Positions 28,816-53,584 of a stretch of DNA of 64,000 nt are shown in pieces (position 1 is the first letter of the stretch; every line of letters begins with the position of its first letter). The stretch comes from Pirellulales bacterium. Lineage in GTDB: Bacteria; Planctomycetota; Planctomycetia; Pirellulales; Lacipirellulaceae. The notes under the pieces were generated by a model. It was given only the letters and a program-made list of their open reading frames with translations. It ran no database searches and was not told the DNA's origin. A program made the translations under genes and the position numbers. Location of the stretch: positions 1 through 64,000 of the forward strand of contig JAHBXQ010000007.1 in NCBI GenBank assembly GCA_019636345.1, in the 5' to 3' direction.

Positions 28816-31212
28816 CTACCGCCCTCGGCGATCGCCTCGCCATGCTGCTGCGGCTGCCATGACCAGCAGGCCGATCGTCGCCGGTTCAGGGACCGCGCCG
28901 CTCACGACGACGGCCGGGACGGAAGCGCCCAGCGTGGCTTGCCAGATCGCTAAATCGGCGGAGTCGACGACGCCATTGCGGTCGGCATCCCCTTGGGCGT
29001 GGGCGGCGCCGCCCGTCGTTCCGTAGCCGCGCTGCCAAATCAAAAAGTCGGCCCCGTCCACGCGGCCGTCAAGGTTGAAGTCGGCGTCGAGCGCGGGCCG
29101 CGCTTCGAGCGTGACGGCGGTCGGGGCGTACAGCACTGCGTAGGTCAACGCGGAGGGCAGCCCGGCGAACGTCATGTTGGCGAACGTGCCCGTCACGCTT
29201 GCGCCGCTGATGATTTCGAACTGGTCGCCGATTTGCGGCACGAACAGTCCCCCTCCGAAATCGACCTGGGCGACGGCCAGCGTCCCCCCCAGTTGCACGT
29301 CCGCTTGCGACAACACGCGGTCGTAGTTGTTGGGATGGGCGCCGCCGATCTCGATCTCCAGCGTAGCGGTCGGGGCGAGTTGATACAGGCCGTGGACCGG
29401 CACGGCGTTGTACGGGGCGAATCCGGGGCGGTGGACGTCGTTGATCCGCACGTCGCGCAACAGGCCGTCGCCGGCGAGCGGGCCGTTGACGGCCAGCACG
29501 TTTCCTCCGCCGGGTCCGCTGACGGTTCCGCGATTGACGAGGCTGCCGTTGATTTCTCCCAGGCCGCGAATCGTGTGGCCCGGTGCATTGGTGAGCGTCT
29601 TTCCCGCGGCGACGGAGACCTGTGCCCGAAAGCCGACGTTGACCAGCTCGATTTCGCCGACGCCGTCGAGCGTCATCGCCGTGGCGCCGTCGAAAAGAAG
29701 CCGGATCGTCGTATTCGCAAACGTCGGATTGACTCGAATCAGGCCGTCGTTCGTCAGCCCGGAGCCTCGCACCGTGACGCCGCTGCTGAGCACCTCAAGC
29801 AGCCCCTGATTGGTCACGTCGGTCAGTTTCGCCGACCCTGACGCCTGAATCCTGCCTGGGCCCGTGCTGTGGAGCCGTCCGTCGACGATCTCGACGCTGT
29901 CGCGCAGGCGAATCGTCCCCTCGTCGGCGACGATGATTCCGGCGGCGTGGTCCTGAACGACGACGACGTTGTTGACAATATCGAGCGTGTTGCCCGCCAG
30001 CGCGGCGATGCGGTTGTTGTTGACTTTGTTCTGGCCGGTCAGCGTCAGGAGGCTCGTGCTGGTTCCCGTAATGGCGGCCTCGATGACGCCGTCATTGACC
30101 AAATTGGCGAAGATCTGAAGCTTGCCGCGCAAGGCGTGGCCGGCTCCGTTGGTCAGCACGGAACTGCCCAGCGTGGAGATCGTGGAAGAAACCGAGCTTG
30201 TTCCGACAACGGCCCCCGTACCCGCGACGGTCATCGTGCCGTCGACTTGCAGCGACGTCGACAGGGCGACCGTGCCGTTGTTCGCGAATCCGCCTCCGTC
30301 GAGGACTAGCGTCGCGTTGGCCGTAAGGGCGCCGTTGTTCGTGACGCCGTGGAAGCGGGCGCCCCCGCCGCCCGACTGGATCACGACGTTGCCCGTGCCG
30401 GTCGTGCGGAGCTCTCCGCCGTGGAGGTGGAGACCGTTAAGTTGCACGGTCCCTCCGTCGGCTTGGATGATCCCGCCGCCGCCCTGCTGAACGCTGAGCG
30501 ATTGGATTTCGAGGATGCTGCCAGGCCCCGCGGCGAACGTGCCGTTGTTGAGATTGGTCGTCGCGGACAAGATCAGCCTGAGCGATCCCGAACCGATGGG
30601 GTTGTACGCAGCGACCATGCCGTTGTTGACGAGCGCGGCGTCGATTCGCCCCATGCCGCGAATCGTGTGGTTGGCGCCATTGGTCAGGGAACTGGCCGCT
30701 TCGAGCCGCGCCCCCGAAACGGGGATCGCCGGCGGGAACCCGGCACTGTAGACCCGATTGAGCGTCAGCGTCCCGACGCCCGCGATTGCTCCCCCCGCGG
30801 GAAAGACCAGCCGCGAAAGGAGCGCCGCATTGTCGCTGTTGACGACGATCTCGCCATCGTTGCGGAGGTCCCCTGCGGCCAGCGTCAGGGTCTTGCCCCC
30901 GAGGATGTTCAACAGCCCCGCGTCGATCTCCAGCGAATCAATCGTCCTGTCGAGATCGAGCACGGCGGGGGCTGGCGGTCCTATGATGGCGTGATCGCCG
31001 ACCGAAGGGGGCGGGCCCCCCTTCCAATTGAGGGCCGAACTCCAGGCGTCGCTCACGGGGTCGTCGCCAGTCCACTTCACGTCGGCCGCGCCGAGAGGTC
31101 TCTTGCCGCAGAACATGGTCAGCGCCAGAACCAAGGCTGGCGTCGCAAATCCTCGAATGCGTCGGAGTCGACGCAGACGCGGTAGCGGACGTTCGCTGCC
31201 GTTCGTGACCAT
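28816..31212 (-). CDS. Secreted beta-repeat protein with dockerin-like motif and PEP-CTERM anchor
   Basis: This 798-residue protein has an N-terminal signal segment after a long basic leader (residues ~1-45). A large beta-strand-rich body follows, built of repeats around L-T-N-(A/G)-P/N-G-H-x-(I/L)-R-G and LVNxGxV (for example at LTNAPGHTIRGLGEINGSLV), as in autotransporter-like passenger domains. Near the C-terminus lies a dockerin-like pair of calcium loops (DFNLDGRVDGADFLIWQ and DADRNGVVDSADLAIWQ). The end is VPEPATIGLL, a hydrophobic segment and an Arg-rich tail, the PEP-CTERM signal handled by exosortase. The ATG at 31212 has GAGGAGG upstream. It is probably an extracellular surface or matrix protein; ligand unknown. 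Confidence 0.88.
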   Translation of the reverse strand: MVTNGSERPLPRLRRLRRIRGFATPALVLALTMFCGKRPLGAADVKWTGDDPVSDAWSSALNWKGGPPPSVGDHAIIGPPAPAVLDLDRTIDSLEIDAGLLNILGGKTLTLAAGDLRNDGEIVVNSDNAALLSRLVFPAGGAIAGVGTLTLNRVYSAGFPPAIPVSGARLEAASSLTNGANHTIRGMGRIDAALVNNGMVAAYNPIGSGSLRLILSATTNLNNGTFAAGPGSILEIQSLSVQQGGGGIIQADGGTVQLNGLHLHGGELRTTGTGNVVIQSGGGGARFHGVTNNGALTANATLVLDGGGFANNGTVALSTSLQVDGTMTVAGTGAVVGTSSVSSTISTLGSSVLTNGAGHALRGKLQIFANLVNDGVIEAAITGTSTSLLTLTGQNKVNNNRIAALAGNTLDIVNNVVVVQDHAAGIIVADEGTIRLRDSVEIVDGRLHSTGPGRIQASGSAKLTDVTNQGLLEVLSSGVTVRGSGLTNDGLIRVNPTFANTTIRLLFDGATAMTLDGVGEIELVNVGFRAQVSVAAGKTLTNAPGHTIRGLGEINGSLVNRGTVSGPGGGNVLAVNGPLAGDGLLRDVRINDVHRPGFAPYNAVPVHGLYQLAPTATLEIEIGGAHPNNYDRVLSQADVQLGGTLAVAQVDFGGGLFVPQIGDQFEIISGASVTGTFANMTFAGLPSALTYAVLYAPTAVTLEARPALDADFNLDGRVDGADFLIWQRGYGTTGGAAHAQGDADRNGVVDSADLAIWQATLGASVPAVVVSGAVPEPATIGLLVMAAAAAWRGDRRGR

Positions 31213-31400
31213 CGCCGGCCTCCTCGAATGACGAGAGCAGGAGCGGGTTGCCGACGCCCGACGACAGGCGGCAAGACCAGAGCGGCGCTCCCTGCGGGCC
31301 TCAGCTTCGCTTCCTGGCCGCCGCAGTGCGCGTGCGACAAGCTCCCCCGCGACGCCCAGCAGCGGACCAACTGGAGCATGACGCCGAGAGGCGCTCCGCG

Positions 31401-31946
31401 TCAAGCGTTTGTCGCCGGCTCGTCGACCGACGGTTTCGTCGACGCAGTCCAGTGTCGGGCGAAGACGTAGGCGACGCACGCCGCCCCCAGGGCGTAGGTG
31501 ATTCCCGCGGCCCAGATAATCTGCTGCTTCTGGGCCGACATGTCGAGCTGCCGCAGCGAGAGCGACGCCGAGATCCCGAAGAAGACGAGAAACACGACAT
31601 TGAACCCGACCACGAACGCTCGGTCGACCTCGCGGTAGCGTCCATGGCTCTCCAGCCAGTGCTCCCAGCAGCTGAAGTCCTTGATGCGGGGCTCGACCAC
31701 CTCGCGCAGGTAACGGCCCGCGCGGCTGATGTTGCTCGATTCGGCGATGAACGACAGCATGAGCGCCAGGATCAACAGCGGAATCGACGCGTTGGCGAAC
31801 CCCGATGGCTGGGCCGCCGCCATGTAGCCGCCGACGATCACCAGCAGCATGCCGACGATCAACAGCCAGAAGATGCGGGCCTTCGACTCGCTGATTTCGG
31901 CCCGGAGGGCCACGTACTGCTGCTTCGAGAATTCATCGAGGTTCAT
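31401..31946 (-). CDS. Four-helix membrane protein of unknown function
   Basis: This 181-residue protein has four likely membrane segments (about 25-44, 53-69, 111-131 and 142-163). A charged cytoplasmic N-terminus (MNLDEFSKQQYVALRAEISE) precedes the first, and a loop with SCWEHWLES lies between the second and third. I do not recognise the family. The ATG at 31946 is preferred because upstream codons in the frame are low-complexity and unlike a protein. It sits 188 bases after the PEP-CTERM gene's start on the same strand and is divergent from the PilT-like gene. It may form an operon with neither. Confidence 0.75.
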   Translation of the reverse strand: MNLDEFSKQQYVALRAEISESKARIFWLLIVGMLLVIVGGYMAAAQPSGFANASIPLLILALMLSFIAESSNISRAGRYLREVVEPRIKDFSCWEHWLESHGRYREVDRAFVVGFNVVFLVFFGISASLSLRQLDMSAQKQQIIWAAGITYALGAACVAYVFARHWTASTKPSVDEPATNA

Positions 31947-39275: not shown

Positions 39276-41630
39276 CTATGGCTGCGAGGTTGCGGGCTCG
39301 TCGCCGTCGCGGCGGACGACGCGCACGCCGAACACTCCGCCGGCGGTGTTGCGGGGCTCGGCCTGGAACTTGACGGTCGCGGTCTTGCGGCCCGTCGTTC
39401 GCTCGAGCGGCAGTTCGTACGTGCGGTCCCAAAACTTGCCGGGCTGATCGCGATCGAGCGACTCGGACGCGAACTTCTCGCCGTCGATCAGGACGTCGAA
39501 CTTGCGGGCCCCTGAATCGCTCCCCCAATAGGTGACGATCAAATCGGCGGCCCCGTCGTCGGGGAGCTTCACGTCGAACGAGAACCAGCCCCCGTCCCAG
39601 GCATGGCGGAACTTCTTCCCGCCGAAGTCTCCCGGCCCCGTCTTCTCCCCCTGGAAGTTGTGATCGCGCTCGGACTGCATCTCGCCAATGGCGAACAGAT
39701 CGACCGTTCGGGCGTCGAGCTGCTTGAGTCGCCGCCGCTGTTCGTTGTATTCGCGTTCCCGGGCGCGCCATTGGTCCTCGGTGAAGACGTCCCAGTAGAC
39801 GATGTAGCGCTCGTCACGGACCGCAAAGAACGGCTCCAGCGGCAGATCCCGTGGGCGGCCGACGCCAGCGGTTTCGAACCGCGCCGGTCGATCCGCCGCG
39901 GGCTTGAGCCAATCGTCGACCGGCCGATCGCTCGTCACCAGCACCGGCAGCATCTCCTCGGCGTCTTGCCCCACGATCCCGACGTACATCGCCGGTCCGT
40001 AGAACGCCGCGACGCGGCCAGGATTGTCCGGCATGGGCTCCAGTCGCAGCGACGGCGGCAAATCGACTTCGACGACGTCCCCGGCGTTCCATGTCCGTTC
40101 GACGGTCGCGAACGATCCCGGCGTGGCGTCGGTCTCGACCTCCGCGCCATTGACGCGAATGCGAAATCCCTCGCCGCACCACCGGGGGCGCCGCACGTGC
40201 AGGGCGAACTCGCGCGGCTCTTTGCAGGAGATTTCCAGCCGCGTCGCCCCCGTGGTCGGCAGCTCGGTCTGCTGGCGAAGCTTCACCCCGGCTCGGGTCC
40301 AATCGAGCTCCGACGAGATGAACTGGTTCACGTACAGGTCGTCGGCCGACCGAGCGTAAACGTACTCGCCGTAGCGGGCGTGGTTCTCCATCCCCGAGCC
40401 GCTGCAGCAGGTGAACGCCTCGGGGTCCATGAACGGCTTGGTCGACCCCGCGGCCAGCGGCACGAAGTAGCAGACCATGCCCGTCGCCGAGTTCTGCGAT
40501 GCCAGGATGTGATTCCACAGCGCCCGCTCGGCGTACTCGACGTACGCGGCGTCGGGCTTCTGCGAGAAGAGGGCCGAGGTCAGCTTGAGCATGTTGTAGG
40601 TGTTGCAGGTCTCGGCCGTGTCATGGCTGAGCCGGTCGTTGAGCTTGCGCGGCGGGCCGAGGTGCTCGCGCATGCTGTTGCCCCCCATGGCGTAGGTGTG
40701 GTTGTCGACGATCGTCGACCAGAAGAAGCGGGCGATCACGGCGAACTTGGCCTCGCCGGTGAGTTCGGCGATCTTCGCCGCGCCGATGATCTTGGGGACC
40801 TGCGTGTTCGAGTGCTTCCCCTCCAATTCGTCGCGCTCGGCGGCGAGCGGATCGAGGATCTGCTTGTGGTAGAACTTCTTCGCCAGCTTGAGGAACTCTT
40901 CGTCGCCGGTGAGTTGATACAGCTCGGCCAGCGACTCGTTCATGCCGCCGTGCTCGCAGGCGAGCATCTGCTGCCACTGTTCGGGCGTCAGGTCGGCGGT
41001 CGTCTCGATCGCCCATCGCCCCAGGCGCGACGCCACGTCGAGCGCCTGCTCGTTGTCGCACAGGCGGTAGGCGTCGATCAGCCCTGCGAACAACTTGTGA
41101 AGCGTGTACCACGGGACCCAGGACCCGTTGAGGTCGAACCCTCGGGAGCGGATGTCGCCGCGGGCCACCTCGGCAAACACTTCGCGGCCCCGCGGCATGG
41201 CGCCGACGAACCCGTCCCCTCCCGCCTCCTGACAGGCGGCCAATTCGGCGACGACGTAATCGACTCGGCGGCGAAACTCCTCGTCGCCGTCCGCGTGGTG
41301 CATCCGGGCGCAGGCGCTCAGGTAATGTCCCAGGCTGTGCCCGGCGATCCCCATCGCTTCCCACCCGCCGTACTGTTCGGCCTTCGGCTCCAGTCCGGCG
41401 TCTTTGCGGTACCAGCTCAGCAGGCGATCGGGCTTGAGCGTCAGCAGGTACGCCGCGTCGGCGTCCTGCGCCTCCTTGAACGGGCCGTCGAGCAACTTGA
41501 CCTGCCGTACGTCGAACGGCCGCACGACCGGCGGCGATTTGGCCGCGACCTGGGCTCGACAGACGGGGGGCGCCAACGGGGCCATGAATACGATCGCAAG
41601 GAACCCAAACTTCAAGGCGGAAACGTTCAC
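39276..41630 (-). CDS. Secreted GH127 beta-L-arabinofuranosidase (DUF1680)
   Basis: This enzyme of 784 residues has the (alpha/alpha)6 barrel of GH127, with WYTLHKLFAGLIDAYRLC and ACEHGGMNESLAELY. The zinc-thiolate active site is intact: Glu340 and Cys342 in TAETCNTYNM and the pair Cys408-Cys409 in FTCCSGSGMEN. In the Bifidobacterium enzyme HypBA1 the corresponding residues are E338, C340, C417 and C418. C-terminal beta domains follow, including a DUF4986-like region and an extra sandwich after ~650. A signal peptide (LKFGFLAIVFMAPLAPPVCRAQ) indicates export. The start is GTG at 41630; a TTG 63 bases further upstream lacks support. The gene follows GH51 copy b after an 84-base gap with a perfect hairpin. 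Confidence 0.9.
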   Translation of the reverse strand: MNVSALKFGFLAIVFMAPLAPPVCRAQVAAKSPPVVRPFDVRQVKLLDGPFKEAQDADAAYLLTLKPDRLLSWYRKDAGLEPKAEQYGGWEAMGIAGHSLGHYLSACARMHHADGDEEFRRRVDYVVAELAACQEAGGDGFVGAMPRGREVFAEVARGDIRSRGFDLNGSWVPWYTLHKLFAGLIDAYRLCDNEQALDVASRLGRWAIETTADLTPEQWQQMLACEHGGMNESLAELYQLTGDEEFLKLAKKFYHKQILDPLAAERDELEGKHSNTQVPKIIGAAKIAELTGEAKFAVIARFFWSTIVDNHTYAMGGNSMREHLGPPRKLNDRLSHDTAETCNTYNMLKLTSALFSQKPDAAYVEYAERALWNHILASQNSATGMVCYFVPLAAGSTKPFMDPEAFTCCSGSGMENHARYGEYVYARSADDLYVNQFISSELDWTRAGVKLRQQTELPTTGATRLEISCKEPREFALHVRRPRWCGEGFRIRVNGAEVETDATPGSFATVERTWNAGDVVEVDLPPSLRLEPMPDNPGRVAAFYGPAMYVGIVGQDAEEMLPVLVTSDRPVDDWLKPAADRPARFETAGVGRPRDLPLEPFFAVRDERYIVYWDVFTEDQWRAREREYNEQRRRLKQLDARTVDLFAIGEMQSERDHNFQGEKTGPGDFGGKKFRHAWDGGWFSFDVKLPDDGAADLIVTYWGSDSGARKFDVLIDGEKFASESLDRDQPGKFWDRTYELPLERTTGRKTATVKFQAEPRNTAGGVFGVRVVRRDGDEPATSQP

Positions 41631-41660
41631 CGGCAGGATCTCGCAAGGGGGGGCGGGCTG

Positions 41661-41685
41661 CTGCGGGAGCCTCGCGCTCCCGCAG
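41661..41685 (-). other. Perfect intercistronic hairpin between GH51-b and GH127
   Basis: A 10-bp perfect inverted repeat CTGCGGGAGC / GCTCCCGCAG with a 5-base loop lies between the GH51-b stop (41715) and the GH127 start (41630). It lacks a T-run on the transcribed strand, so it is not a classic terminator. A message-processing or stability element, or partial attenuation, is possible. Confidence 0.6.
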
Positions 41686-41714
41686 CGGGACAAAGCCGAC
41701 TCCGGAGCCGTTCC

Positions 41715-44228
41715 CTATTGGACCGGAAATCGGAGAACGGTCAACGAATGCGGGGCGAATTCATGCACGAATACGGGGCCCGCGAGTTTCGCCGTGCTCG
41801 TTTGCGGGGCGATCGCCTCGGGTTCGTCGAGCGAGTTGACCGCATCGGGATCGCCCGCGAGCACGACGATTCGGGCCTCGTCCCCGGCGAGCTTGGCGGA
41901 TCCCAGGTCGATCTGTCCTGTCACAGGCTTGTCGCCCACGTGCACCGCCTTGACGACGACCTCGCGGGTCGCGGCATCGCGACCCGCGACGGCGTACAAC
42001 CAGGGCAGCTCCAAGGCCGGAATCGTCGCCTCGTGGACGAGCTTGTCGTCGAGGTAGCACCGCACGTCAGGGCCGCTCAGCTCGATCCGGACGTCGTACC
42101 AGCGTCCCTCCTCGATGCTTCCCGGCGTCGCGGCCACTTGCGGATTCTCGGTGCTATGCCGGGCGAGAAACGCTTGCAGCGTGTGCTGCGTGTTGCCCGC
42201 GGCGCCAATGTTCCACTGCACGAACGATCCCCCCGGCGTCCCGCGGACCAGCGCCGCAAAGCCCCCCGGGCCCCCCGTCTTGCGGGCCTGGAATCGCACC
42301 ACGTAGTCGCGCCAATCGCAGTCTCCCAACAAGGCGCGGCAGGTCGCCCGCGGCGCCGTTTGGGCGAGCGTGTCGCCATCAAGTTCCCACCGCCCACGGA
42401 AGCGTTCGAGCACGTCGACGTCGGCAAGCTGGTCGGCCCGCCACAGCGTTTCGCCCTCGCGCGCGACCGTGATTCCCCGGAACTCGACCGTCGCGTCGTT
42501 GGCGCCGACGCCAATTCGTCCCCCCGCGGGCGCCCGGGGGCGCGGGTCGACGAACTCGATCGGCAGCACGACGTCGGCCCGATGCCGGCTGAACAATTGC
42601 TGGACGTAGTAGTTCGGGGTCGCGTACGAGGTCAGGCTGTCGAACCAGATCAGATTCGGCCGCCACTGCCACGCCTCCTCGTGCCCGAACAGCGGGGCGT
42701 AGCACGACATGACCACCACGTCCGAGTTGCGCTCGATCCCGGTGAGAAACGCCGCCTCGGCCAAAGCGCAGCGCAGGTTGTTGCGGTTGTCGGGCGAGCA
42801 GATGTCGATCGACTGGGCCGCGTATTCGCCCATGAACACTTGCGATCCGCCGCGGGGGTAGGAATCGTAGCGCGTCGCCTCGCGCTGGAACCAATCGGGG
42901 CAGGCGTAACAGTGCTCGTCGACCGCCTCGGCCTTCTGCGGGCGGAGCCGCGACCAGGCGTAATCAAAGTCGGCGCCGACCGGGAACGGTCCGGAACCCG
43001 AGACGAGCCGAATCTCGGGATGCTTCTCCTTGAGCACGGCCGCGATTCGCTCGTATCGGTCGAGGTACTGCGGGCCCCACTGTTCGTTGCCGATCCCCAG
43101 CATCGTCAGACCGAACGGCGCGGGATGCCCGAGCGCGGCCCGGCGGGCGCCCCACGGGGTCTCGGGGCCGCCGTTGGCGAACTCGATTAGATCGAGCACG
43201 TCGTCGATGTACGGTTCCAGGGCATCGAGCGCAACGAGCTCCTTCGAGTTGAACTGGCACGCCATGCCGCAATTGAGGATCGGCAGCGGCGCGGCTCCGA
43301 GGTCCTCGCTCAACTGGAAGAACTCGAAGAACCCGACGCCGAACGACTGAAAATAGTCGGGCGTAAGCCGATGGGCGAACTCGGCGTTCCAGCGGTTCAA
43401 CAACAACCGCCGCTCGGCCAAGTCGCCGATGGTCGTTTTCCACTGATAGCGGTACTTCAACTCCGGCCCTTCGACGATGCACCCCCCGGGGAAGCGGAAG
43501 AACGCGGGTTGCAGCTCCGCGAGCTTCTGCACGAGATCGGCCCGCAGCCCGTGGGGGCGTTCCCGCCAGGTACGTACGGGGCAGAGCGACGCCATGTCGA
43601 GATCGATCAGCCCGGGCCCGGCGAGCAGCAACTGCAGCGAGCCGCGCCCCTCGTCCGCGGTCGGGACGAGCTCCGTCTCGACCGCGCGCCATTCCGACCC
43701 GGCGACGTCGACGGCGGATTCGGCGAGCGCCTTCCCCTGCGGATCGACCAGTCGCACCACAAGCAGGGCGGTCCGTCCGGCGACCGAGCGCGCCTGGGCC
43801 GTGAAGCGGTACGGTTCGCCCGCGCGGAACCCCATGCCGCGGAACCCTTCGTTCGCGGCGCCGTAGGGGCCTTGCTCGCTGGTTTCGATCCGCAGGAAGA
43901 CGGCGTTGGTCGTTCGCCAGGGGGCGTCGTTGCTCGTGCTCAGTCGACCCCGCGACCCGCCGCGGACCTCGCTCCAGCCAAGCAGCGCCCGGGGAAACTC
44001 GAAACCGCCGTTCTTCACCAACTCGGCGTTGAGCCCCCCGTCGCCGCCGAAGTTGATGTCCTCGAAGAAGATGCCGTAGAGCTGCGGACTGACCGTGTGG
44101 CCGGGGCGGTCGACGGCGACGCGCAATTGAACCTCGGCCGCCGCAGCGATCGAGGCGAGCAAAGCCGTCAGGGCCGATAGCGCACCGCACCTCAACAGAC
44201 ACCGCAGGTTACCCGCGGGCGCTGGCAT
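41715..44228 (-). CDS. Secreted GH51 alpha-L-arabinofuranosidase with inserted lectin-like domain (copy b)
   Basis: This 837-residue paralogue of the enzyme at 34733-37180 shares its whole layout. It has a signal peptide (LTALLASIAAAAEV), an N-terminal beta-sandwich, a GH51 barrel with GIGNEQWGPQY and FMGEYAAQS as acid/base and nucleophile sites, a concanavalin-like insert (WELDGDTLAQTAPRAT to CYLDDKLVHEATIPAL) and a C-terminal beta domain. It is the first gene of the minus-strand arabinan run. The start at 44228 is an ATG with GGAG just upstream; the open frame extends further back only as shadow sequence. Having two secreted GH51 enzymes in one run suggests different linkage preferences, for example arabinan versus arabinoxylan. 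Confidence 0.92.
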   Translation of the reverse strand: MPAPAGNLRCLLRCGALSALTALLASIAAAAEVQLRVAVDRPGHTVSPQLYGIFFEDINFGGDGGLNAELVKNGGFEFPRALLGWSEVRGGSRGRLSTSNDAPWRTTNAVFLRIETSEQGPYGAANEGFRGMGFRAGEPYRFTAQARSVAGRTALLVVRLVDPQGKALAESAVDVAGSEWRAVETELVPTADEGRGSLQLLLAGPGLIDLDMASLCPVRTWRERPHGLRADLVQKLAELQPAFFRFPGGCIVEGPELKYRYQWKTTIGDLAERRLLLNRWNAEFAHRLTPDYFQSFGVGFFEFFQLSEDLGAAPLPILNCGMACQFNSKELVALDALEPYIDDVLDLIEFANGGPETPWGARRAALGHPAPFGLTMLGIGNEQWGPQYLDRYERIAAVLKEKHPEIRLVSGSGPFPVGADFDYAWSRLRPQKAEAVDEHCYACPDWFQREATRYDSYPRGGSQVFMGEYAAQSIDICSPDNRNNLRCALAEAAFLTGIERNSDVVVMSCYAPLFGHEEAWQWRPNLIWFDSLTSYATPNYYVQQLFSRHRADVVLPIEFVDPRPRAPAGGRIGVGANDATVEFRGITVAREGETLWRADQLADVDVLERFRGRWELDGDTLAQTAPRATCRALLGDCDWRDYVVRFQARKTGGPGGFAALVRGTPGGSFVQWNIGAAGNTQHTLQAFLARHSTENPQVAATPGSIEEGRWYDVRIELSGPDVRCYLDDKLVHEATIPALELPWLYAVAGRDAATREVVVKAVHVGDKPVTGQIDLGSAKLAGDEARIVVLAGDPDAVNSLDEPEAIAPQTSTAKLAGPVFVHEFAPHSLTVLRFPVQ

Positions 44229-44452
44229 CCGCTCCAGGCTCTGAGCGGACGGCGCTCGCCGCCGGTGCAGCACGCGAGGCTCCTGCACAACCCGCCATCG
44301 TTGTTTGCTCGGGACTGGCGCCTGCGGCTCGTGATCGGGGGCAAAGCCTGACATGACACGTAACAAGAGGGCTGTCGATGGTGAAGGCAAGCGAGCCGGC
44401 ACGACAGGCCTGGCGATCGCGCTTGCAGGACGATAGCGAGGACAAAAGACCA

Positions 44453-44485
44453 AGGCGCCGGCGAAGCGCGACGCTGCCGGCGCCT
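44453..44485 (-). terminator. Terminator after the second DUF1559 gene
   Basis: A 10-bp perfect stem AGGCGCCGGC / GCCGGCGCCT with a 13-base loop lies 34-66 bases past the DUF1559 stop at 44519. On the transcribed strand it is followed by TTGGTCTTTTG, a short T-run. It should separate this unit from the downstream arabinan genes, whose promoter would then lie in 44229-44452. Confidence 0.65.
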
Positions 44486-44518
44486 GAATCGATGGCCGTC
44501 GTCGCCTAGCGGCAGCCG

Positions 44519-45598
44519 TCAGTTCCCGATGCTGACCGTCTCGCCCCCGGCGGCGCTCGTGAGGGCGTTCCATACAAAGCGATCGATGCTGTCGGTGTAG
44601 AACGCAACGGAGGCGTCGCAGCGCGACGCGTTGACGCCGCCGGGATGCCGACTGCGAGCGCTCACATAGTTTTGTTTCGTACCATGCTGGTTGTCCACTC
44701 TGGCTTCGGCAGGGACGTCATTGCTCCGAGGAATGTTCAGAGGAGATGCAGGGGGGCTTGGCAATTCTGCGGCGGCCCAGGCGTCCCTCACGTCTTGGTT
44801 AGGCGACCACCACCATGACTGCCGATCGAGGCCATCGGGAACCGTTGTGTTGGGAGTTTGGTAGCCTGTGAACATCTGACCTCCCAAAGCCGTCTGGGCG
44901 TCCGAGTAGGGCCCGCCCCAGTTCGCGGTTTCGGGTAGGACGAAGACCTCTGACATCATAAGAGTGTTGGCCGTACCATCAGTGATCGCGGCGAGTTTCC
45001 CTTCTTTCTTCGGTATGAACGGGGCCCCGCCAAAGGTGATGCAGTTGGGGAATTCCCCTGGGCAACCTCCAAGAAGATGTTGGCCGTAAACCGTATTGCC
45101 GCCGTTGACGACATAGTTGCTTCGTACGCGAGCCCAATATACGCTGCCCCATTCGTTGCGTTGCAGCCCAATGTCAGTTGGGCAGGCATAGAGCGGGACG
45201 AAAGCTCGCCGAGCGGCTTCGTTAGCGGCATGGCTAAACGATTTGGTCACGTCGACAACAGCGACGATTCCTTGTTGCTCGATGTAGGGCATGAGGGGCA
45301 GATACCATCCATGGTCGTCATACCAACTGCCTTGAACCCCGCCGGCTCCGTAGGTTGCGGTCATCTCGGCATTGGACCAGTGCTTCGCCAGATGCGGCAA
45401 TCCCTTCTTGGCCGACTCGTAGTTGAGCATAGCCACGCTCAACTGCCTCAGGTTGTTGAGGCACTGCGAGCGGCGGGCCGCCTCGCGGGCCGCTTGGATC
45501 GCCGGCAACAACAGCGCGACCAGCACGCCGATGATGGCGATCACCACCAGAAGTTCGACCAGCGTGAAGGCCCTCGATTGGCTAAGTCGATGTTTCAT
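44519..45598 (-). CDS. DUF1559 family pseudopilin-like protein
   Basis: This 359-residue protein begins with SRAFTLVELLVVIAIIGVLV, then AIQAAREAARRSQCLNNLRQ, the DUF1559 start. The C-terminal motif is H-X9-D (RHPGGVNASRCDASVAF), again with Ala after Asp. The middle part differs from the first DUF1559 protein in this window (GSWYDDHGWYLPLMPYIEQQ, ACPTDIGLQR). ATG at 45598 gives the natural 10-residue leader. The gene follows a small lipoprotein gene by 73 bases, the reverse of the gene order in the other two pairs. The gene's base use is noticeably more AT-rich than that of its neighbours. Confidence 0.93.
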   Translation of the reverse strand: MKHRLSQSRAFTLVELLVVIAIIGVLVALLLPAIQAAREAARRSQCLNNLRQLSVAMLNYESAKKGLPHLAKHWSNAEMTATYGAGGVQGSWYDDHGWYLPLMPYIEQQGIVAVVDVTKSFSHAANEAARRAFVPLYACPTDIGLQRNEWGSVYWARVRSNYVVNGGNTVYGQHLLGGCPGEFPNCITFGGAPFIPKKEGKLAAITDGTANTLMMSEVFVLPETANWGGPYSDAQTALGGQMFTGYQTPNTTVPDGLDRQSWWWSPNQDVRDAWAAAELPSPPASPLNIPRSNDVPAEARVDNQHGTKQNYVSARSRHPGGVNASRCDASVAFYTDSIDRFVWNALTSAAGGETVSIGN

Positions 45599-46404: not shown

Positions 46405-48603
46405 TCACTTGTCTCTTGATCGGAACCGCTTGGCGGGTCGGCGGCGACCTTGCCAGCCGACCGCGCACGCCGCGGCTGCGGCCAAAGCCGTCGCCGACGG
46501 CTCGGGGACCGTCGCTCCCAGTAGGGCCGACGAGCCCGGCCCGTGGACCGCCTCGTAGTCGGCCTTGAACAGCCGGAAGTCGGCGACGTCGTTGTCGCCG
46601 TCGCCGTCCAGATCGCCGGCGCGGTACGCGGCGACCGGAGACAAGCCCGTCAGGCTGGTCAGGTGATTGTCGCGCAGCGCCGGCCAGTCGGCCGCGTCGA
46701 TGACGCCGTCGGCGTTCAAATCGCTGCGGGCGAAGCGGTTGCCGTCGTTGCCGACGTACTTCACGGTCCCGGGGATGGTCGAGCCGTCGCCCAGCGTGAT
46801 CGTCAGCAACAGGTCCTCGGTCGGCGAGGCGAGCCACCCACCCGCCGAGCTGAGCGTCACGCTTTGAGCGTCGTCGAGAAGCCCGGCGGTCCCTAGCGAG
46901 CTCTCGGCGAACGAGTAGAAATCGCCCGCCGGCGAGGTGATCTGCCAGTTGTTCGTCTGGTCGACGGCGCCGGTTCCCGCCGCGTCGGCAAAACCCGTGA
47001 TCGGCGTGTCGAACCCGGCGGCGTTGATCGCCCCCGCGGGGGAGGCGAGCGCGTAGCCGCGAATGTCGACCGCGGCGCCGGTGGGGTTCGACAAGGCCAT
47101 TCCCCCCGTCATGCGATCGACCGTGAGAGTCACCGTCAGGTAGGGGACGAGCTTGAAGATCTCGCCCAAGCCGGCGGCGGGATACTGACCGTCGAAGCTG
47201 TTTTGCGTCCCCGAGCGGTTGCCGAAGTCGACGATGTAGAGATTCCCGGCGTTGTCCTCGCCGAACGACACGATCTTGTCGAGCCCGGGCAGATCGTTTT
47301 GATTCGAACTGGGCATGTACGTCGGATCGGTCGGGTCGTAGACCAGCGATTGCCACAGCGAAGTCAACTCGGTGACGACGCCGTTGTTGCCGTTGGGGGT
47401 CTCGTTGCGATCGTATTCGAGCGACCAGTACCGTGACCGGACGAAGTCGGCGTAAAAGTACTTCCCCTGCAATTCTTCGATCGGCCCGCGGTAGACGTAT
47501 CCGCCGATGACGGCCAGGCCGTCGGCGTGGGAGTACTGCTGGATCGGATCGAGCGATTCGACGCCCGTGAACGGGTTGGTCGGCAAGTGGGGGGCGCCGG
47601 AGACGTTGCTCTCGAACGTCCCCTCCCATTGCGGCCAGCCGAGATCGACGGGGGGACCGCCGAGGTTGGAACCCTGCTTGATGAAATGGACCTCCTCGAC
47701 GGCGTTCTCGCCGACGTCGCCGTAGTAGAAGTCGCCGGTCTCCCGGTCGAAGCTGGCGCGGTAGCCGTTGCGGACCCCGGTGATCCAGACCTCCCCCAGC
47801 CCGGAGATCGGCGAACCGGGGTTCGCCGCGTTGTAGGCGGGGATCGGATTGGTCGACGGAATCGAGAAGTTCTTGTTCCCGTTGCCGAGATACGAGTCGC
47901 CCGAGACGTCGACGCGCAGGATCTTGCCTTGCAGGTCGGCGGGGTTTTGCGACGGCCGGCCCGTGGGGCTCGTCCCCCCGTTGTACGCGTTGCCGAACGA
48001 GCCTTCGCCGGCGGAGATGTAGAGATGATTGCGCTCGGCCCCCGTCGCTGTAGGATCGAACCCGATCCAGTTGACCGTGTGGTTGTTCTGCGCGTTGTTG
48101 TTGTAACGGAGGATGGTCCGCACCGAGCCGAACGTGCCGTCGGGGTTCATCGTGTACTCTTCGACCCGATTGATCGCGGTGGTGCTGCGCTCGCTGCTGG
48201 AGACGTACATCTTGCCGTAGGTCGGGGCGCCGGGCGTGTTGAAATCGGGGCTGAAGGCGATCGTCTGCAGACCCGTGTCGTTAGTGACCGACCGGTGCGA
48301 CAAGTCGAGCACGACCGTTTTGGTCCGCGTGTCGACGTCGTATCGCCAGACCTTGCCCATCTGGTTGATCGCCGAAAAGCCGCCGATCGTGTTGGAGGTT
48401 CGCTCGGCAAAGTAGAGGATGTTCGCCGGGTCGCCGGGGGCCTGCGTGACGTAGGTCGGCTGGCTGAGGCCCGAGGCGATTCGTTCGAGTCGGTAGCCCT
48501 GGGCGTCGGCGTCGGCGGCGCCGATCGTCAACAGGCAGGCGAACAGAAACTTCGCCGGCGAGGAGTCCGGGCGAACCCGGCGCGATCTTGCAAGGATGTC
48601 CAT
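46405..48603 (-). CDS. Secreted sorbosone/glucose dehydrogenase-like propeller protein with dockerin-like motif and PEP-CTERM
   Basis: This 732-residue protein has an N-terminal export signal (KFLFACLLTIGAADADAQ). A six-bladed propeller of the glucose/sorbosone dehydrogenase type follows (about 38-470): LERIASGLSQPTYVTQAPGD, LYISAGEGSFGNAYN, ITGVRNGYRASFDRETGDFYYGDVGENAVEEV. Members of this fold may bind PQQ and oxidise sugars; many planctomycete versions are untested. An undescribed linker domain comes next (about 490-625, beginning VTLTVDRMTGGMALSNPTG). Then two calcium-loop repeats (DLNADGVIDAADW, DLDGDGDNDVADF) and VPEPSATAL, the PEP-CTERM end, follow. It would act at the cell surface. 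The ATG at 48603 is the only reasonable start. Confidence 0.9.
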   Translation of the reverse strand: MDILARSRRVRPDSSPAKFLFACLLTIGAADADAQGYRLERIASGLSQPTYVTQAPGDPANILYFAERTSNTIGGFSAINQMGKVWRYDVDTRTKTVVLDLSHRSVTNDTGLQTIAFSPDFNTPGAPTYGKMYVSSSERSTTAINRVEEYTMNPDGTFGSVRTILRYNNNAQNNHTVNWIGFDPTATGAERNHLYISAGEGSFGNAYNGGTSPTGRPSQNPADLQGKILRVDVSGDSYLGNGNKNFSIPSTNPIPAYNAANPGSPISGLGEVWITGVRNGYRASFDRETGDFYYGDVGENAVEEVHFIKQGSNLGGPPVDLGWPQWEGTFESNVSGAPHLPTNPFTGVESLDPIQQYSHADGLAVIGGYVYRGPIEELQGKYFYADFVRSRYWSLEYDRNETPNGNNGVVTELTSLWQSLVYDPTDPTYMPSSNQNDLPGLDKIVSFGEDNAGNLYIVDFGNRSGTQNSFDGQYPAAGLGEIFKLVPYLTVTLTVDRMTGGMALSNPTGAAVDIRGYALASPAGAINAAGFDTPITGFADAAGTGAVDQTNNWQITSPAGDFYSFAESSLGTAGLLDDAQSVTLSSAGGWLASPTEDLLLTITLGDGSTIPGTVKYVGNDGNRFARSDLNADGVIDAADWPALRDNHLTSLTGLSPVAAYRAGDLDGDGDNDVADFRLFKADYEAVHGPGSSALLGATVPEPSATALAAAAACAVGWQGRRRPAKRFRSRDK

Positions 48604-49256
48604 CGTGAGTGGCGGCCAGAAGCGATGGTCCGGGCGGCGTCGGTCGCTCGGACGCGCGGAAGACATCTCGACCGAAGGTACGACGACCGTCGGCGACGCA
48701 GAGCGGACAGCGACCGAGGTCGCAAGCAGAAGTCAGGCGGCGAATGCGATGAAGACAAGGCGGCGGCGTGTCGCCGAAATGCATCTCGACGACTTCTCCT
48801 TCAGTCACCTTAAGCGCTCTAGTCGCCGCGAACAAACGTCCTGCGCGATATCTAAAGATGTTGTGCGGAGAGTTGGTTGGCGTCCGCGCGCTCGGCAGTT
48901 CATAATCGGGCCCGAACGCGAAGGGCTGCAGACGGGCAGGTCTTCCCGCTTTTCGTTCAGGACAGGCCACGGCGGGCTTCCCTGCTTGCTGTTGCACGGA
49001 CGCGAAGCTGCTTAAGCGACTCTTCAAACGGCGACGTTCTTCTCGTTGCTCGCAGCTGCGCGAGATTTCCGTGGATTTGGGTTTGATCCTCGAGGACGCT
49101 TTTCGGCAACCCGCAGGCGAGCCTGCTTAGCCCGCAAGAGTCAAGCGACCGACCGTTCCTCGGAAATCAGGACATTACCGGCGTTTTCTTGACTGAGGGG
49201 CGCGGTCAAGACGGCGATCGACACACCATTGCTTCAGACGACAAGGAGACGGAATT
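48604..49256. other. Divergent region between two PEP-CTERM genes
   Basis: 653 bases with no credible gene. It contains several inverted-repeat fragments (for example GGGCAGG / CCTGC near 48938-48990) and an AT-richer patch at 48780-48860, which includes GATATCTAAAGATG. Both flanking genes must be transcribed from here. I found no known riboswitch. Confidence 0.4.
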
Positions 49257-50759
49257 GTGAATCGACGATTGTTGACAGGCGTCGCGGCGGTCCTCGTTTC
49301 GGCGACGAATGCTTGGGGGGCGGTCACGCACCTTTACACCTTTAACGACGGCACGGCGAACGACTCGGTCGGCGGCGCCCACGGCACGCTCGTCGGCGGC
49401 GCCACGATTTCGGGGGGAGAAGCGATTCTGGGCGGCGGGCCGATCAACACTCCCGACACCTCGGCCAACAACATGGGCCCCCACGTCAGCTTCGACGCGG
49501 CGACGATCGCCATCAACACCTACACGGCCGCGAGCATCGAGGTGTGGCTGAAGTCGGACACGTCCAACGCGATTCCGACCGGCCAGTTCACGATGGCCGC
49601 GGCGCTCGGCCGGCACACGACCAACACGGGCGGAAACGAGGCCCCCTGGTCCGGCCACCAGTACATCATGATGCAGCCGACCCGCGGCGGCGGACCGGCC
49701 GCTATGCGGGCTGCGATCACCAACGATCGGTTCGAGAACGAGACCGGCGTCAATGGCGTGGCCCAAATCGCCGACAATCTGCTCCACCATTGGGTGGTGA
49801 CGATCAACTCGACGACGATCAGTTCGTATCTCGACGGCGTGCTGCAGGGTTCGACGGCGCTAGGAAGCAACTCTCTGTCTCAACTCAGCAACGAGGTCGT
49901 CTACCTCGGGCGATCGCTCTACAACGACCCCTTCTTCAAGGGATCGATCGACCAATTTGCGATCTACAATACGGCATTGACCCAGACCGAAGTGACGACC
50001 AACTTCAACACCGGCCCGGTGGGCACCGGCAGTCCCGGGGTGGCCACGCTGACGATCGACCGCGACACCGGCGCGATGACGCTCAGCAAGCAGGGCGCCC
50101 CGCATGAAATGTTCCGTTACGAGATTAACTCCGCCAGCGGGGCTCTCAACCCGGCCCAATGGCGCACGATCGCCGACAACGCCGACTCTGACAGCGGCTC
50201 GTCGTTCGACGATAACGACGTCTGGAACGTTCTGACTGCGACGAACTTCACGTGGTCGGAGGAAGAGCCGATCGACGGCGGCGGCGACAACGGCGGTCTT
50301 CTGGGAGCCGGCGGCACGACCTCGCTCCCCCTCTCGACAGCCGGCGGGTGGCTCAAGTCCTACCGCGAAGACGTCACGATGACCCTGGGCATTCTCGTCA
50401 ACGGCATCGAGGCGACCACCCCGGTCAACGTCGTCTACACCGGCAACGGCGGTGAGCCGTTCAAACGAAGCGATTTCAACTTCGACAATGAGATCGATGA
50501 GGTCGACTACCAGATCCTGCTGAGCAACCACCTGACGACGCTCACGGATCCGAATGCGGCTTCGACGTACCTCAAGGGCGACGTCAACGGCGACCTGCGC
50601 AACGACGTCCTCGACTTCCGGCTGTTCAAGGAGGACTTCATCGCCGTCAACGGTTTGGCGGCGTTCAACGCTTTGGTCGGCGCGGTTCCCGAGCCGGGTT
50701 CCGTCGCGCTGGCGGTCCTCGCGGCCGCGACCGTGGTCGGACTTCGGCGCCGACGTTAG
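49257..50759 (+). CDS. Secreted LamG-domain protein with dockerin-like motif and PEP-CTERM (copy 1)
   Basis: This 500-residue protein starts at GTG 49257 with AAGGAG about 10 bases upstream. After a signal peptide (VSATNAWGAV) comes a concanavalin-like LamG domain (about 22-255) starting THLYTFNDGTANDSVGGAHG and ending GSIDQFAIYNTALTQTEV. An uncharacterised ~135-residue linker follows (VATLTIDRDTGAMTLSKQG to the WLKSYREDVTMTLG region). Two calcium-loop repeats (DFNFDNEIDEVDY, DVNGDLRNDVLDF) and VPEPGSVALAVL with an Arg-rich tail close the protein. It is probably an extracellular carbohydrate-binding surface protein. A paralogue follows 88 bases downstream. Confidence 0.9.
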   Translation: MNRRLLTGVAAVLVSATNAWGAVTHLYTFNDGTANDSVGGAHGTLVGGATISGGEAILGGGPINTPDTSANNMGPHVSFDAATIAINTYTAASIEVWLKSDTSNAIPTGQFTMAAALGRHTTNTGGNEAPWSGHQYIMMQPTRGGGPAAMRAAITNDRFENETGVNGVAQIADNLLHHWVVTINSTTISSYLDGVLQGSTALGSNSLSQLSNEVVYLGRSLYNDPFFKGSIDQFAIYNTALTQTEVTTNFNTGPVGTGSPGVATLTIDRDTGAMTLSKQGAPHEMFRYEINSASGALNPAQWRTIADNADSDSGSSFDDNDVWNVLTATNFTWSEEEPIDGGGDNGGLLGAGGTTSLPLSTAGGWLKSYREDVTMTLGILVNGIEATTPVNVVYTGNGGEPFKRSDFNFDNEIDEVDYQILLSNHLTTLTDPNAASTYLKGDVNGDLRNDVLDFRLFKEDFIAVNGLAAFNALVGAVPEPGSVALAVLAAATVVGLRRRR

Positions 50760-50847
50760 GCTCGCTGGCTGCACACGCGCCAGCTCGAGGACGTCATCAA
50801 CAGGACCATCTCATTCGCAACTCCAATTGAAATAAGGTTTCCCCACG

Positions 50848-52236
50848 ATGAATCTGCGGACTGCAATGAATTGGGCGACTCGCGCCGCGGCCGGTTTGGC
50901 CGGGACGGCGGCGGTTGCAATTTTGACCGGCGTGACGCCCGCCTACGGGGCGTTGACCCATAAGTACACCTTCAACGACGGCACGGCGAACGACTCCGTC
51001 GGCGCGGCCCACGGGACCTTCGTCAACGGTCCGACCGTCACGTTCGACGGCCAAGTCGATCTCGACGGAGTGAACGACTACGTCAGCCTTCCCGGACCGA
51101 CGATCGCGATCAATACGTACTCGGCCGTCACGCTCGAAACGTGGTTCACGATGGACGTCGCGCAAGGGTGGCAACGCATCTACGACTTCGGCGACACGAG
51201 TCCGGACAATCTGGGCAGGAACTACATCTTCTACTCGCCGAGCAGCGGGCCCGGCGACCATCGGGCCGTGATTTCCGACGCTGATCCCGGCTACTTAAGC
51301 GAGGAACTCGCCGTCGGGGGGCCGACGCTCTCGACCGGTATCGAGCATCACATCGCGGTCACGATCGCCAATGGCGGCAACATGACGCTGTACCACAACG
51401 GCGTCCAAGCCGGAACGGTGGCGCTGACCAAGTCGCTGGCGTCGGTCAGCAATGCGTTCGCCTTGCTGGGCGAGGCGGTGTATCCCGGCGACCCGAACTT
51501 CAACGGGCGCATTGACGAGTTCCGGATTTACGACACGGCCTTGTCCGCCTCGGAGGTCCAGGCCAGCTATGCGCTCGGGCAGGATTTCAAGCAGACGCTC
51601 GTGTTGGACGTCAACACGGTCACCGGGGCCGTGGGGCTGCGCAACGCGACGGCCGTCCCGCTCTCGTTCGACTACTACCAAATCACCAGCGCCGCAGGGA
51701 CGCTGAGCACCACGAACTGGAACAGCCTGAGCGACCAGAACATCGACGCGGTCGGCGGCGGCCAAGGGGAGAGTTGGGACGAAGCGGGCGGGGTGACCAG
51801 CAACGTGCTTAGCGAGTTGTTTCTCGGCGGCTCGACGACGCTTGCCCCCAACGCCACGCTCAGCCTGGGCAACGCCTTCAACACGGGCGTCGGGGCGACG
51901 GATCTCCGGTTTCAGTATTCGTTGACCGACGGAACGGTCGCCAAGAGCGCGGTCAACTACGTCACGGGAGCGACCGATTCCGATTTCAACAACGACAACA
52001 TCGTTAACGGCAGCGACTTCCTGATCTGGCAGCGTAATTTCGGCGCGACCAGCGGGGCCACCAACGCCCAGGGCGACACCAACAATGACGGGGCTGTCAA
52101 CGCCGCCGACTTGGCCAACTGGAAGACCAGCTACGGTCAGCCGTCGGCGACCGCCGTGGCCGCGGGAGTCCCCGAGCCGTCGGCAATGCTGATCGCGTTG
52201 GCCGGTCTGTCGTTGTTGGGCTTCGCCCGTCGCTAA
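50848..52236 (+). CDS. Secreted LamG-domain protein with dockerin-like motif and PEP-CTERM (copy 2)
   Basis: This 462-residue protein shares a near-identical opening with the upstream gene product (THKYTFNDGTANDSVGAAHG), showing tandem duplication. Order: signal peptide (GVTPAYGA), LamG domain (about 36-245), the same linker type beginning LVLDVNTVTGAVGLRNATA, two calcium loops (DFNNDNIVNGSDF, DTNNDGAVNAADL) and VPEPSAMLIALAGLSLLGFARR. The middle of the LamG domain differs strongly from copy 1, so ligand choice may differ. The ATG at 50848 has AAGG upstream. The gene is followed by a clear terminator. Confidence 0.9.
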   Translation: MNLRTAMNWATRAAAGLAGTAAVAILTGVTPAYGALTHKYTFNDGTANDSVGAAHGTFVNGPTVTFDGQVDLDGVNDYVSLPGPTIAINTYSAVTLETWFTMDVAQGWQRIYDFGDTSPDNLGRNYIFYSPSSGPGDHRAVISDADPGYLSEELAVGGPTLSTGIEHHIAVTIANGGNMTLYHNGVQAGTVALTKSLASVSNAFALLGEAVYPGDPNFNGRIDEFRIYDTALSASEVQASYALGQDFKQTLVLDVNTVTGAVGLRNATAVPLSFDYYQITSAAGTLSTTNWNSLSDQNIDAVGGGQGESWDEAGGVTSNVLSELFLGGSTTLAPNATLSLGNAFNTGVGATDLRFQYSLTDGTVAKSAVNYVTGATDSDFNNDNIVNGSDFLIWQRNFGATSGATNAQGDTNNDGAVNAADLANWKTSYGQPSATAVAAGVPEPSAMLIALAGLSLLGFARR

Positions 52237-52342: not shown

Positions 52343-52411
52343 CACCGCCGGTCGGTATCACAAACGGTCCAGTCAGGCGTCACGGTCCTATTGACTCCGT
52401 CGCAGCGGTCT

Positions 52412-53584
52412 ATGCCACTTAAGACGCCGAAGGTCGCCCTGCTCATCGAAACGTCGCGGGGTTACGGGCGAGGGCTGCTGCGCGGCATTTCGCGCTACGC
52501 CAAGCATCACGGGCCGTGGGAGTTCTACATCACTCCGGGCGATTTCGCCCAGCATTTGCCGCGAATCAAACAGTGGAGCGGCGACGGGATCATCGCCCGG
52601 CTCGAAACGCCGGCGATCGCTCGCGACGTGTGCGCCGCCAATCTGCCGACGATCATTCTCGACGTGTCGCAGAACATTCCGCTCGACATGCCCGAGCTGC
52701 AACGATTCAGCGAGGTGGCGTCCGACTCCGTCGAAGCGGGCCGGATGGCGGCCGAGCATTTGCTCGACCGCGGTTTCAAGCAATTCGCCTATGTCGGCGA
52801 GCACGGTCGCATCTGGTCGCACAACCGAGAGGCGGGTTTCCGCTCCGCTCTGCAGAAGCGAGGTTTCGACGCCCTGGTGTACGAAGGCCCGCGCAACAAG
52901 CAGAAACAATTTTGGGAGCGGGAGCAGGCCGTGCTGGCCGAGTGGTTGGCGGCGCTCCCCAAACCGATCGGAGTGATGGCGTGCAACGACGATCGCGGGC
53001 GGCAAGTGCTCGACGCCTGCCTGACGGCGGGGGTGAAGTCGCCGCTTGAGGCGGCAGTCGTCGGGGTCGACAACGACGAACTGCTGTGCGAGCTTGCCAT
53101 GCCGCCATTGTCGAGCGTGGCCCTGAACTCCGACGCCGGGGGATACCGGGCCGCGGCGTTGCTCGACGACCTGATGGCGGGCCGGCGTCGCAAGCCGCAG
53201 CGGGTGACCGTCGAGCCGATCGGCGTCGTCGAGCGCCGCTCCACGCAGGCCACCGCGCAGTACGACCCCGACGTTGCGGCGGCGATTCACTTCATCCACG
53301 ATCATGCGGGGCAGAACATTGGCGTCGACGACGTGGTGCGGCACGTGCACATGTCGCGGCGAACGCTCGAGATTCGGTTCCGCGACGTCGTCGGGCGATC
53401 GCCTTATCACGAGTTGCAGCGGGTGCGAGTCGAGCGGGCGCGCCGGTTGCTGATGGAAACCGACTTGCCGATCCCCCGCGTGGCCGCCGCCGCCGGTTTC
53501 AGCAGCAACGCCTACTTGGCGCAGGTCTTCCAGAAATGGGTCGGCAAGACCCCCTCGCAAATCCGCCGGCAGCATCGAACGTAG
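52412..53584 (+). CDS. Second XylR-like regulator (LacI-type sensor plus AraC HTH)
   Basis: This 390-residue paralogue of the regulator at 2538-3746 has the same design. The sensor domain has KVALLIETSRGYGRGLLRGI, MACNDDRGRQVLDACL and VGVDNDELLCELAMPPLSSV. The C-terminal AraC HTH (about 280-388) has MSRRTLEIRF and a second motif around AAGFSSNAYLAQVFQ. The ATG at 52412 is chosen over the TTG at 52391. It stands alone, between a terminator and a glycosyltransferase gene. Its closest sugar locus is the arabinan run 8 kb to the left, so L-arabinose sensing is possible but unproved. Sensor residues differ from copy 1 throughout, so the two probably bind different sugars. Confidence 0.9.
   Translation: MPLKTPKVALLIETSRGYGRGLLRGISRYAKHHGPWEFYITPGDFAQHLPRIKQWSGDGIIARLETPAIARDVCAANLPTIILDVSQNIPLDMPELQRFSEVASDSVEAGRMAAEHLLDRGFKQFAYVGEHGRIWSHNREAGFRSALQKRGFDALVYEGPRNKQKQFWEREQAVLAEWLAALPKPIGVMACNDDRGRQVLDACLTAGVKSPLEAAVVGVDNDELLCELAMPPLSSVALNSDAGGYRAAALLDDLMAGRRRKPQRVTVEPIGVVERRSTQATAQYDPDVAAAIHFIHDHAGQNIGVDDVVRHVHMSRRTLEIRFRDVVGRSPYHELQRVRVERARRLLMETDLPIPRVAAAAGFSSNAYLAQVFQKWVGKTPSQIRRQHRT

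Follow-up and report, generated by a model that had tools for sequence, protein, structure and literature searches.

This analysis concerns a 64,000-nucleotide stretch of DNA, referred to as the window (positions 1 to 64,000 of contig JAHBXQ010000007.1, assembly GCA_019636345.1, from a Pirellulales bacterium of the family Lacipirellulaceae), and three adjacent genes in it whose products, P1, P2 and P3, share a domain of 131–144 residues between an N-terminal head and a dockerin or dockerin-like module. At the level of sequence, this domain and the module are shown to make up a bipartite tail, of which there are two paralogous versions, A and B. Genes for A and B are paired, either as neighbours or by fusion, an arrangement suggesting that these bacteria may make pairs of sugar-catching proteins for their surface. 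The two classes, their pairing, a remote similarity to the lamin tail domain and the fused versions found in relatives all go beyond an earlier note on this DNA. The features of the three proteins are as follows.

46405..48666, minus strand: P1, secreted, with GSDH-type propeller, class A domain, dockerin-like module and PEP-CTERM (open reading frame, Pfam, alignment, class profiles)
47401..48360, minus strand: P1 head, glucose/sorbosone dehydrogenase-like propeller PF07995, residues 103–422 (Pfam, E 7.3e-13)
46726..47145, minus strand: P1 shared domain, class A, residues 508–647, with GGWL (alignment, shuffles, AlphaFold2, class profiles)
46564..46725, minus strand: P1 dockerin-like module (Pfam, 16.6 bits against a cut-off of 22.9)
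46441..46512, minus strand: P1 PEP-CTERM sorting signal (Pfam, 19.5 bits against a cut-off of 20.7)
49257..50759, plus strand: P2, secreted, with LamG head, class A domain, dockerin-like module and PEP-CTERM (open reading frame, Pfam, alignment, class profiles)
49482..49994, plus strand: P2 head, LamG/ConA-like lectin domain PF13385 (Pfam, E 5e-19)
50037..50468, plus strand: P2 shared domain, class A, residues 261–404, with GGWL (alignment, shuffles, class profiles)
50469..50630, plus strand: P2 dockerin-like module (Pfam, 21.7 bits against 22.9)
50682..50753, plus strand: P2 PEP-CTERM sorting signal (Pfam, 19.7 bits against 20.7)
50848..52236, plus strand: P3, secreted, with LamG head, class B domain, dockerin and PEP-CTERM (open reading frame, Pfam, alignment, class profiles)
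51064..51561, plus strand: P3 head, LamG/ConA-like lectin domain PF13385 (Pfam, E 2.4e-25)
51586..51978, plus strand: P3 shared domain, class B, residues 247–377 (alignment, shuffles, AlphaFold2, class profiles)
51982..52116, plus strand: P3 dockerin module, above the Pfam cut-off (28.8 bits against 22.9)
52168..52233, plus strand: P3 PEP-CTERM sorting signal (Pfam, 19.9 bits against 20.7)

The positions of the three open reading frames agree with the earlier note, as does its description of different N-terminal heads combined with dockerin and PEP-CTERM ends: Pfam finds a GSDH propeller in P1 and LamG in P2 and P3. A PEP motif, a hydrophobic stretch and a basic end were found in all three with our own pattern, and the Pfam scores of these signals (19.5–19.9) are only slightly below the cut-off.

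A common region of about 130 residues had been proposed for the three proteins and is confirmed by local alignment. The scores were 168 for P1–P2 (z 20.2), 97 for P1–P3 (z 8.4) and 70 for P2–P3 (z 5.5), and for each of the three linker pairs none of 2,000 shuffles equalled the real score; P1 and P2 are 34% identical across 143 aligned columns. The proposed start motif with TG is seen in P1, P2 and P3, and GGWL, reported for two proteins, is confined to P1 and P2. On the linker regions of P1–P3 none of the Pfam or NCBIfam models scored above its cut-off, and when 40 domain copies were compared with Pfam the best match to any family, the lamin tail domain (E 9.2e-5), was, judged by its E-value, below its cut-off. 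The reading as a common domain without a name is supported.

Two classes of tail and their pairing

Architecture was read from 95 reading frames holding 132 domain copies, taken from the window and from 60 stretches around high-scoring hits. Profile sorting placed the 128 copies that were long enough in class A (62) or class B (66), with a smallest margin of 22.8 bits; four short ones were dropped, two of them in locus L101, whose first copy is thus unclassified. In the window the order P1, P2, P3 reads A, A, B. GGW is rarer in class B (4 of 66 copies) than in class A (13 of 62), and P3 belongs to class B. An EF-hand-like loop, DxxGDGSVDxxD, occurs in 16 of the 62 class A copies and in none of the 66 of class B, the loop of P1 being degenerate; putative calcium binding by the shared domain itself is treated as no more than a lead.

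A dockerin-like module directly follows the domain in 113 of the 132 copies (all 62 of class A and 51 of class B) and is nested within it in seven, giving 120 copies coupled to a dockerin. The remainder comprises six copies that are the first of a tandem and six in which the module is neither directly after the domain nor nested; among these last six, the module of L094 begins 63 residues downstream, inspection by eye shows a dockerin-like stretch in L096 and, separating the two pieces of the copy, in L072, and another copy is truncated where the stretch ends. The type of dockerin agrees with the class of the domain in all 114 held-out tests (113 dockerins, split in half twice), with related sequences present in both halves. 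A PEP motif lies within the last 60 residues of 93 of the 95 frames, preceded by V, I or L in 85 and by A or T in eight, and one of the two frames lacking it is cut by the stretch end. The tie of the domain to dockerin and PEP-CTERM, first noticed in three proteins, therefore holds across the set. The heads vary: of 54 proteins with a single copy, 28 have LamG and 11 have GSDH according to Pfam.

The two classes occur together. Frames with two copies (34) read A then B in 27 cases, B then A in one (L061) and BB in six, five of these last being tandem copies within one protein. Neighbouring single-copy genes on the same strand form 19 A-then-B and four B-then-A pairs, and one further pair lies on opposite strands. 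The other class was found within 4 kb of 30 of the 34 single-copy A genes and 20 of the 26 single-copy B genes; for eight of the other ten genes, the stretch read ends within 4 kb. A–B frames are present in 15 of the 26 genomes with stretches read, and A–B neighbours in others. Partner heads resemble one another in 21 of the 46 pairs, as against 189 of 2,070 mismatched combinations, a figure which, like those for pairing, is inflated by the shared ancestry of the pairs.

Several observations weigh against a strict partnership of A and B. Four neighbouring pairs run B then A, with a further class A gene carrying a propeller beyond the B gene in every case, 25 of the 46 pairs show no head similarity at E<1e-3, and a protein's own partner is its best head match in only seven of 46. 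Outside the family, the stretches read show only class B (five copies in three genomes); this and the six BB frames indicate that B does not always need A. The class and pairing counts are also not independent, since high-scoring hits guided the choice of loci and the pairs have a common ancestry. The pairing makes many anonymous PEP-CTERM genes testable as pairs.

Fold, remote kinship and distribution

AlphaFold2 models, built with 22 related sequences, gave confident β-sandwiches for the domains of P3 (eight strands, predicted local distance difference test (pLDDT) 90.0, predicted template modelling score (pTM) 0.85) and P1 (ten strands, pLDDT 88.8, pTM 0.83). Comparison with solved structures produced only middling matches: the N-terminal region of GH20 (Z 8.1), cohesins (Z 5.2–6.7, root-mean-square deviation 3.3–4.4), complement, adhesins and lamin. 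The lamin structure 6ghd_F aligned over 86 residues (Z 5.7, root-mean-square deviation 2.8), tied with many other sandwiches, and lamin was not among the 50 structure matches listed for the P1 model. A three-row profile found no relative among solved structures by sequence up to E 10. With a 40-row profile the best match was to a carbohydrate-binding module fragment (E 0.15), followed mostly by FimH fragments, and these were taken as chance.

The lamin tail domain (PF00932) was weakly matched by eight of the 40 copies at E≤1. A lamin tail profile was made from 21 lamin tail domains of 10 of the 12 genomes searched (8 of 10 in the window's family). The 40-copy profile scored 25.5 against it, a value reached by none of 200 column shuffles (average 10.4 ± 1.8, maximum 16.2), and the class A and class B profiles alone gave z 6.5 and 7.5 (60 shuffles). 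LamG was rejected as the origin of the domain, profile similarity not being seen (z 1.8). Cohesins gave no Pfam match in the 40 copies, and hhalign against three cohesins scored 8.5 (z −1.0, 60 shuffles, thin profile).

Some results tell against this kinship. With Foldseek neither model had a match at E≤0.001, the top rows being the GH20 N-terminal region, cohesins and Ig-like folds, and assignment to a family by VIA-align rows at Z 5–8 was dropped as such rows are too common and the matches unspecific. Scanned singly against PF00932, five of ten copies matched, the best at 18.1 bits against a cut-off of 34.3. The hhalign probability of the link is 24.5%, and for this reason the shared domain is regarded as a remote relative, and not a member, of the lamin tail family. 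According to the profiles and models, the linker is an independently folding β-sandwich domain of about 130 residues, from an unnamed family remotely related to the lamin tail domain. The shared domain is modelled as a β-sandwich, like the lamin tail domain, both profiles have a core of the kind xLxNxxxxxVDLxGYxI, and both domains are found in the same genomes. The shared domain differs, however, in its length of about 130 residues with a variable insertion loop and in its fixed coupling to dockerin and PEP-CTERM; true lamin tail domains coexist separately in the genomes that carry it, and its copies score below their curated cut-off. The window's family is rich in lamin tail domains (3–33 matches per genome in the ten tested, as against one each in two genomes of another family), many of them in frames of 1,200–2,200 residues.

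In an even sample of 296 genomes of the order, with up to 14 candidates scored per genome, the shared domain was found in 44, namely in 33 of 43 Lacipirellulaceae and in 11 of 253 elsewhere. This sample was relied on in place of a first one of the phylum, in which at least three of 392 genomes were positive with a narrower profile and ten candidates scored per genome. Among 59 relatives 35 had matches, the numbers ranging from 0 to 45 per genome apart from two genomes with at least 70 and at least 71, in which 70 first-look candidates were scored; the window's genome has 11 or 12, depending on the profile. A scan of named genomes gave seven loci, all in Pirellulales (one in a Pirellula sp. metagenome-assembled genome), with narrow patterns that do not by themselves prove a restriction to this order. 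Domain copies at G398:C9:119957-120331 and G409:C1:5124408-5124800 lie in frames with an in-frame TAG and are probably in decayed genes. This domain, which has no name and is present in tens of copies in many Lacipirellulaceae genomes, now has defined boundaries.

Fused frames as candidate polyproteins

In the fused frames, complete cargo proteins stand in series: an internal PEP-CTERM signal is followed by an arginine-rich loop, a new signal peptide and the next protein. One or two internal PEP-CTERM signals were found in 36 of the 95 domain frames, and in one of 51 PEP-signal frames without the domain in the same stretches. A second hydrophobic segment follows all 48 internal junctions. The loops at these junctions have a median length of 13 residues, with 33 of the 48 no longer than 15, and together contain 266 K/R and 26 D/E; an excess of basic residues is expected for a cytoplasmic hairpin loop.

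A systematic sample (evenly spaced, 1.2 Mb, three related genomes) contained 50 PEP-CTERM frames, one of which (L164) is doubtful. The domain was present in six and absent from 44. Three of the six have an internal signal, a second hydrophobic segment and both classes, and none of the other 47 PEP frames has a junction of PEP-CTERM and membrane segment. In the fused frame L167 the second copy was resolved into two pieces, one A-like (36.8 bits) and one B-like (44.7), and in L208 the B copy is cut by the stretch end (23.5 bits).

These frames may be Lacipirellulaceae polyproteins with two or three cargo proteins each. The long precursor would cross the membrane in a series of hairpins, from which signal peptidase and exosortase would release the A and B proteins in equal amounts, the lamin-tail-like pair forming a two-headed glycan receptor at the surface. 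The proposal is tentative, and we judge its chances to be a little short of even. Separate initiation could still occur, since 19 of the 48 junctions have an in-frame start codon with a purine-rich upstream site, and two other observations also count against a polyprotein: the third-position excess in codon-position GC that the flanking coding sequence shows is missing from the loops (0.586 as compared with 0.718), and between L059 and L063 there are differences across some 20 residues immediately before a Met at the junction. All three would fit recent losses of stop codons, the units being mainly translated separately. This explanation is, on balance, unlikely in view of the 33 short loops, the 27 of 48 junctions that have no in-frame ATG, and the coincidence, in the systematic sample, of the three frames with internal signal and membrane segment with those carrying both classes. 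Long fused frames also occur in the single-contig genomes G402 and G404 and in an Aeoliella straminimaris record (L124, 1272 amino acids).

The cargo resembles that of the PEP-CTERM/exosortase system as described in PMC1569441, the first paper on PEP-CTERM, in having a PEP motif, a hydrophobic stretch and a basic end, with exosortase present. According to that paper, the signal sits near the extreme C-terminus and the few sites with much longer tails may be non-functional; here, in contrast, signals within the chain are found repeatedly, and after each comes another hydrophobic segment that resembles a signal peptide. No report of PEP-CTERM or exosortase polyproteins, or of planctomycete PEP-CTERM with dockerin, was found in the open-access full-text literature, and the listing of open-access work on planctomycete polyproteins showed nothing apparently related. 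Internal sorting signals, if true, would mean that exosortase can act mid-chain, which bears on cargo recognition and release, and would extend the known bacterial polyproteins by a new kind.

A further unit, starting near a DRxYxxGD motif and ending in PEP-CTERM, was found by pattern in L076, L090, L105, L082, L089 and L067 and is apparently a conserved third cargo; similar starts were seen in the fused frames L060, L078, L087, L102 and L110. Exosortase genes themselves are found in frames of approximately 1,740–1,770 residues at G402:C1:3441252, G412:C91:533714, G404:C1:1484638 and G398:C2:93067, which suggests fusion to a large second part.

Proposed function, its alternatives and the arabinose locus

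We favour, with a probability of roughly 55%, the reading that domain and dockerin form a stalk for sugar-binding heads and that A and B work as a pair; from the data above we infer both the pairing of the mature proteins and their cleavage. By analogy with known families, proteins of the P1–P3 type would be exported by means of their signal peptides, and exosortase would cut at the PEP motif and hand them on for display. Exosortase genes are indeed present: there are two in the window's genome, and 13 of 13 family genomes tested were positive, compared with none of two from another family. The tail would then act as a rigid stalk holding the head (LamG or the sugar-dehydrogenase-like propeller) off the envelope. 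Gene pairing, fusion, matched dockerins and partly matched heads suggest that A and B members would act as a pair at the cell surface, and in the window P2 (A) and P3 (B) would be this pair.

The same tail might be a passive spacer, a simple β-sandwich stalk whose A–B cassettes were copied as a unit while the mature proteins make no contact. The BB frames, the B copies without A outside the family and the 25 pairs with no detectable head similarity are all compatible with this. It is nevertheless rather unlikely, as the dockerin type tracks the domain class, partners resemble each other in their heads about five times as often as mismatched combinations do, and A–B frames are found in 15 of the 26 genomes, with A–B neighbours in others. 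The earlier note had suggested a scaffold or a processing domain for exosortase cargo. As a general processing domain, or as an element recognised by exosortase or a partner protease, the shared domain is very improbable: the PEP motif does lie close to the end of 93 of the 95 domain frames, but the dockerin-like module separates the domain from the downstream part in 113 of 132 copies, and with 44 of the 50 sampled PEP-CTERM frames lacking the domain, exosortase sorting seems not to need it. The scaffold half of that suggestion fares better, a stalk or scaffold role being the better fit because each class of the domain comes with a dockerin type of its own.

A diverged cohesin that binds dockerins of the same or neighbouring proteins, giving surface chains, must also be considered. 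The many cohesins among the fold matches and the dockerin-like module adjoining or nested in 120 of 132 copies would suit such a role. Moreover, Pfam cohesins were found in only two of ten family genomes and not in that of the window, which leaves the dockerins without a known partner. The β-sandwich modelled for the domain is similar in size to that of cohesin. On the other hand, the domain shows no sequence or profile similarity to cohesin (PF00963), whether in Pfam or against the three family cohesins with their thin profile, the structural matches are headed by a protein other than a cohesin, and none of the Z values is better than middling; a cohesin-like role is quite unlikely. In the frame of 3,520 residues that includes G404:C1:2374297-2375274 (L217), Pfam cohesins are found together with dockerin-like loops.

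The paired stalk that we prefer has a parallel in the X module of cellulosomal X–dockerin pairs, a β-sandwich that immediately precedes the dockerin in a fixed two-module unit, packs on it and aids cohesin binding. The likeness lies in the modelled β-sandwich directly before the dockerin in 113 of 132 copies; the proteins described here differ in ending in PEP-CTERM and in the lack of a Pfam cohesin in the window's genome. The Planctosome proposal (PMC6461901) likewise concerns planctomycete surface complexes with dockerin and lamin tail domain. That model, however, rests on cohesin–dockerin binding and peptidases, and its main text mentions neither PEP-CTERM nor exosortase.

The surroundings of the trio point to a possible substrate. 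It is flanked by two arabinofuranosidases and a XylR-type regulator:

41715..44573, minus strand: α-L-arabinofuranosidase (context; an arabinofuranosidase of one of the two kinds is in 9 of 11 trio loci)
39276..41693, minus strand: GH127 β-L-arabinofuranosidase (context)
52391..53584, plus strand: XylR-type sugar regulator (context; a relative is also in L053 and L125)

Eleven loci have a separate propeller-A gene and an A–B pair. The nine of these with an arabinofuranosidase of either kind compare with none of 60 background stretches, and in the stretches read at the other two, L054 and L074, the enzyme was not seen. This recurrence supports, for this subset, a function in the utilization of plant glycans rich in arabinose; A–B pairs other than the window type have other heads, and, as a point against the link, the fused-frame loci with propeller heads (L064, L080 and L112) have no arabinofuranosidase in the stretch read. 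P1 is a second A member, with a propeller head, beside the P2–P3 pair, probably serving the use of arabinan or arabinoxylan. The association with arabinofuranosidase loci thereby indicates a function amenable to assay. A frame without the shared domain, at 28819–31932 of the window (minus strand, 1,038 residues), also carries a dockerin-like module and PEP-CTERM.

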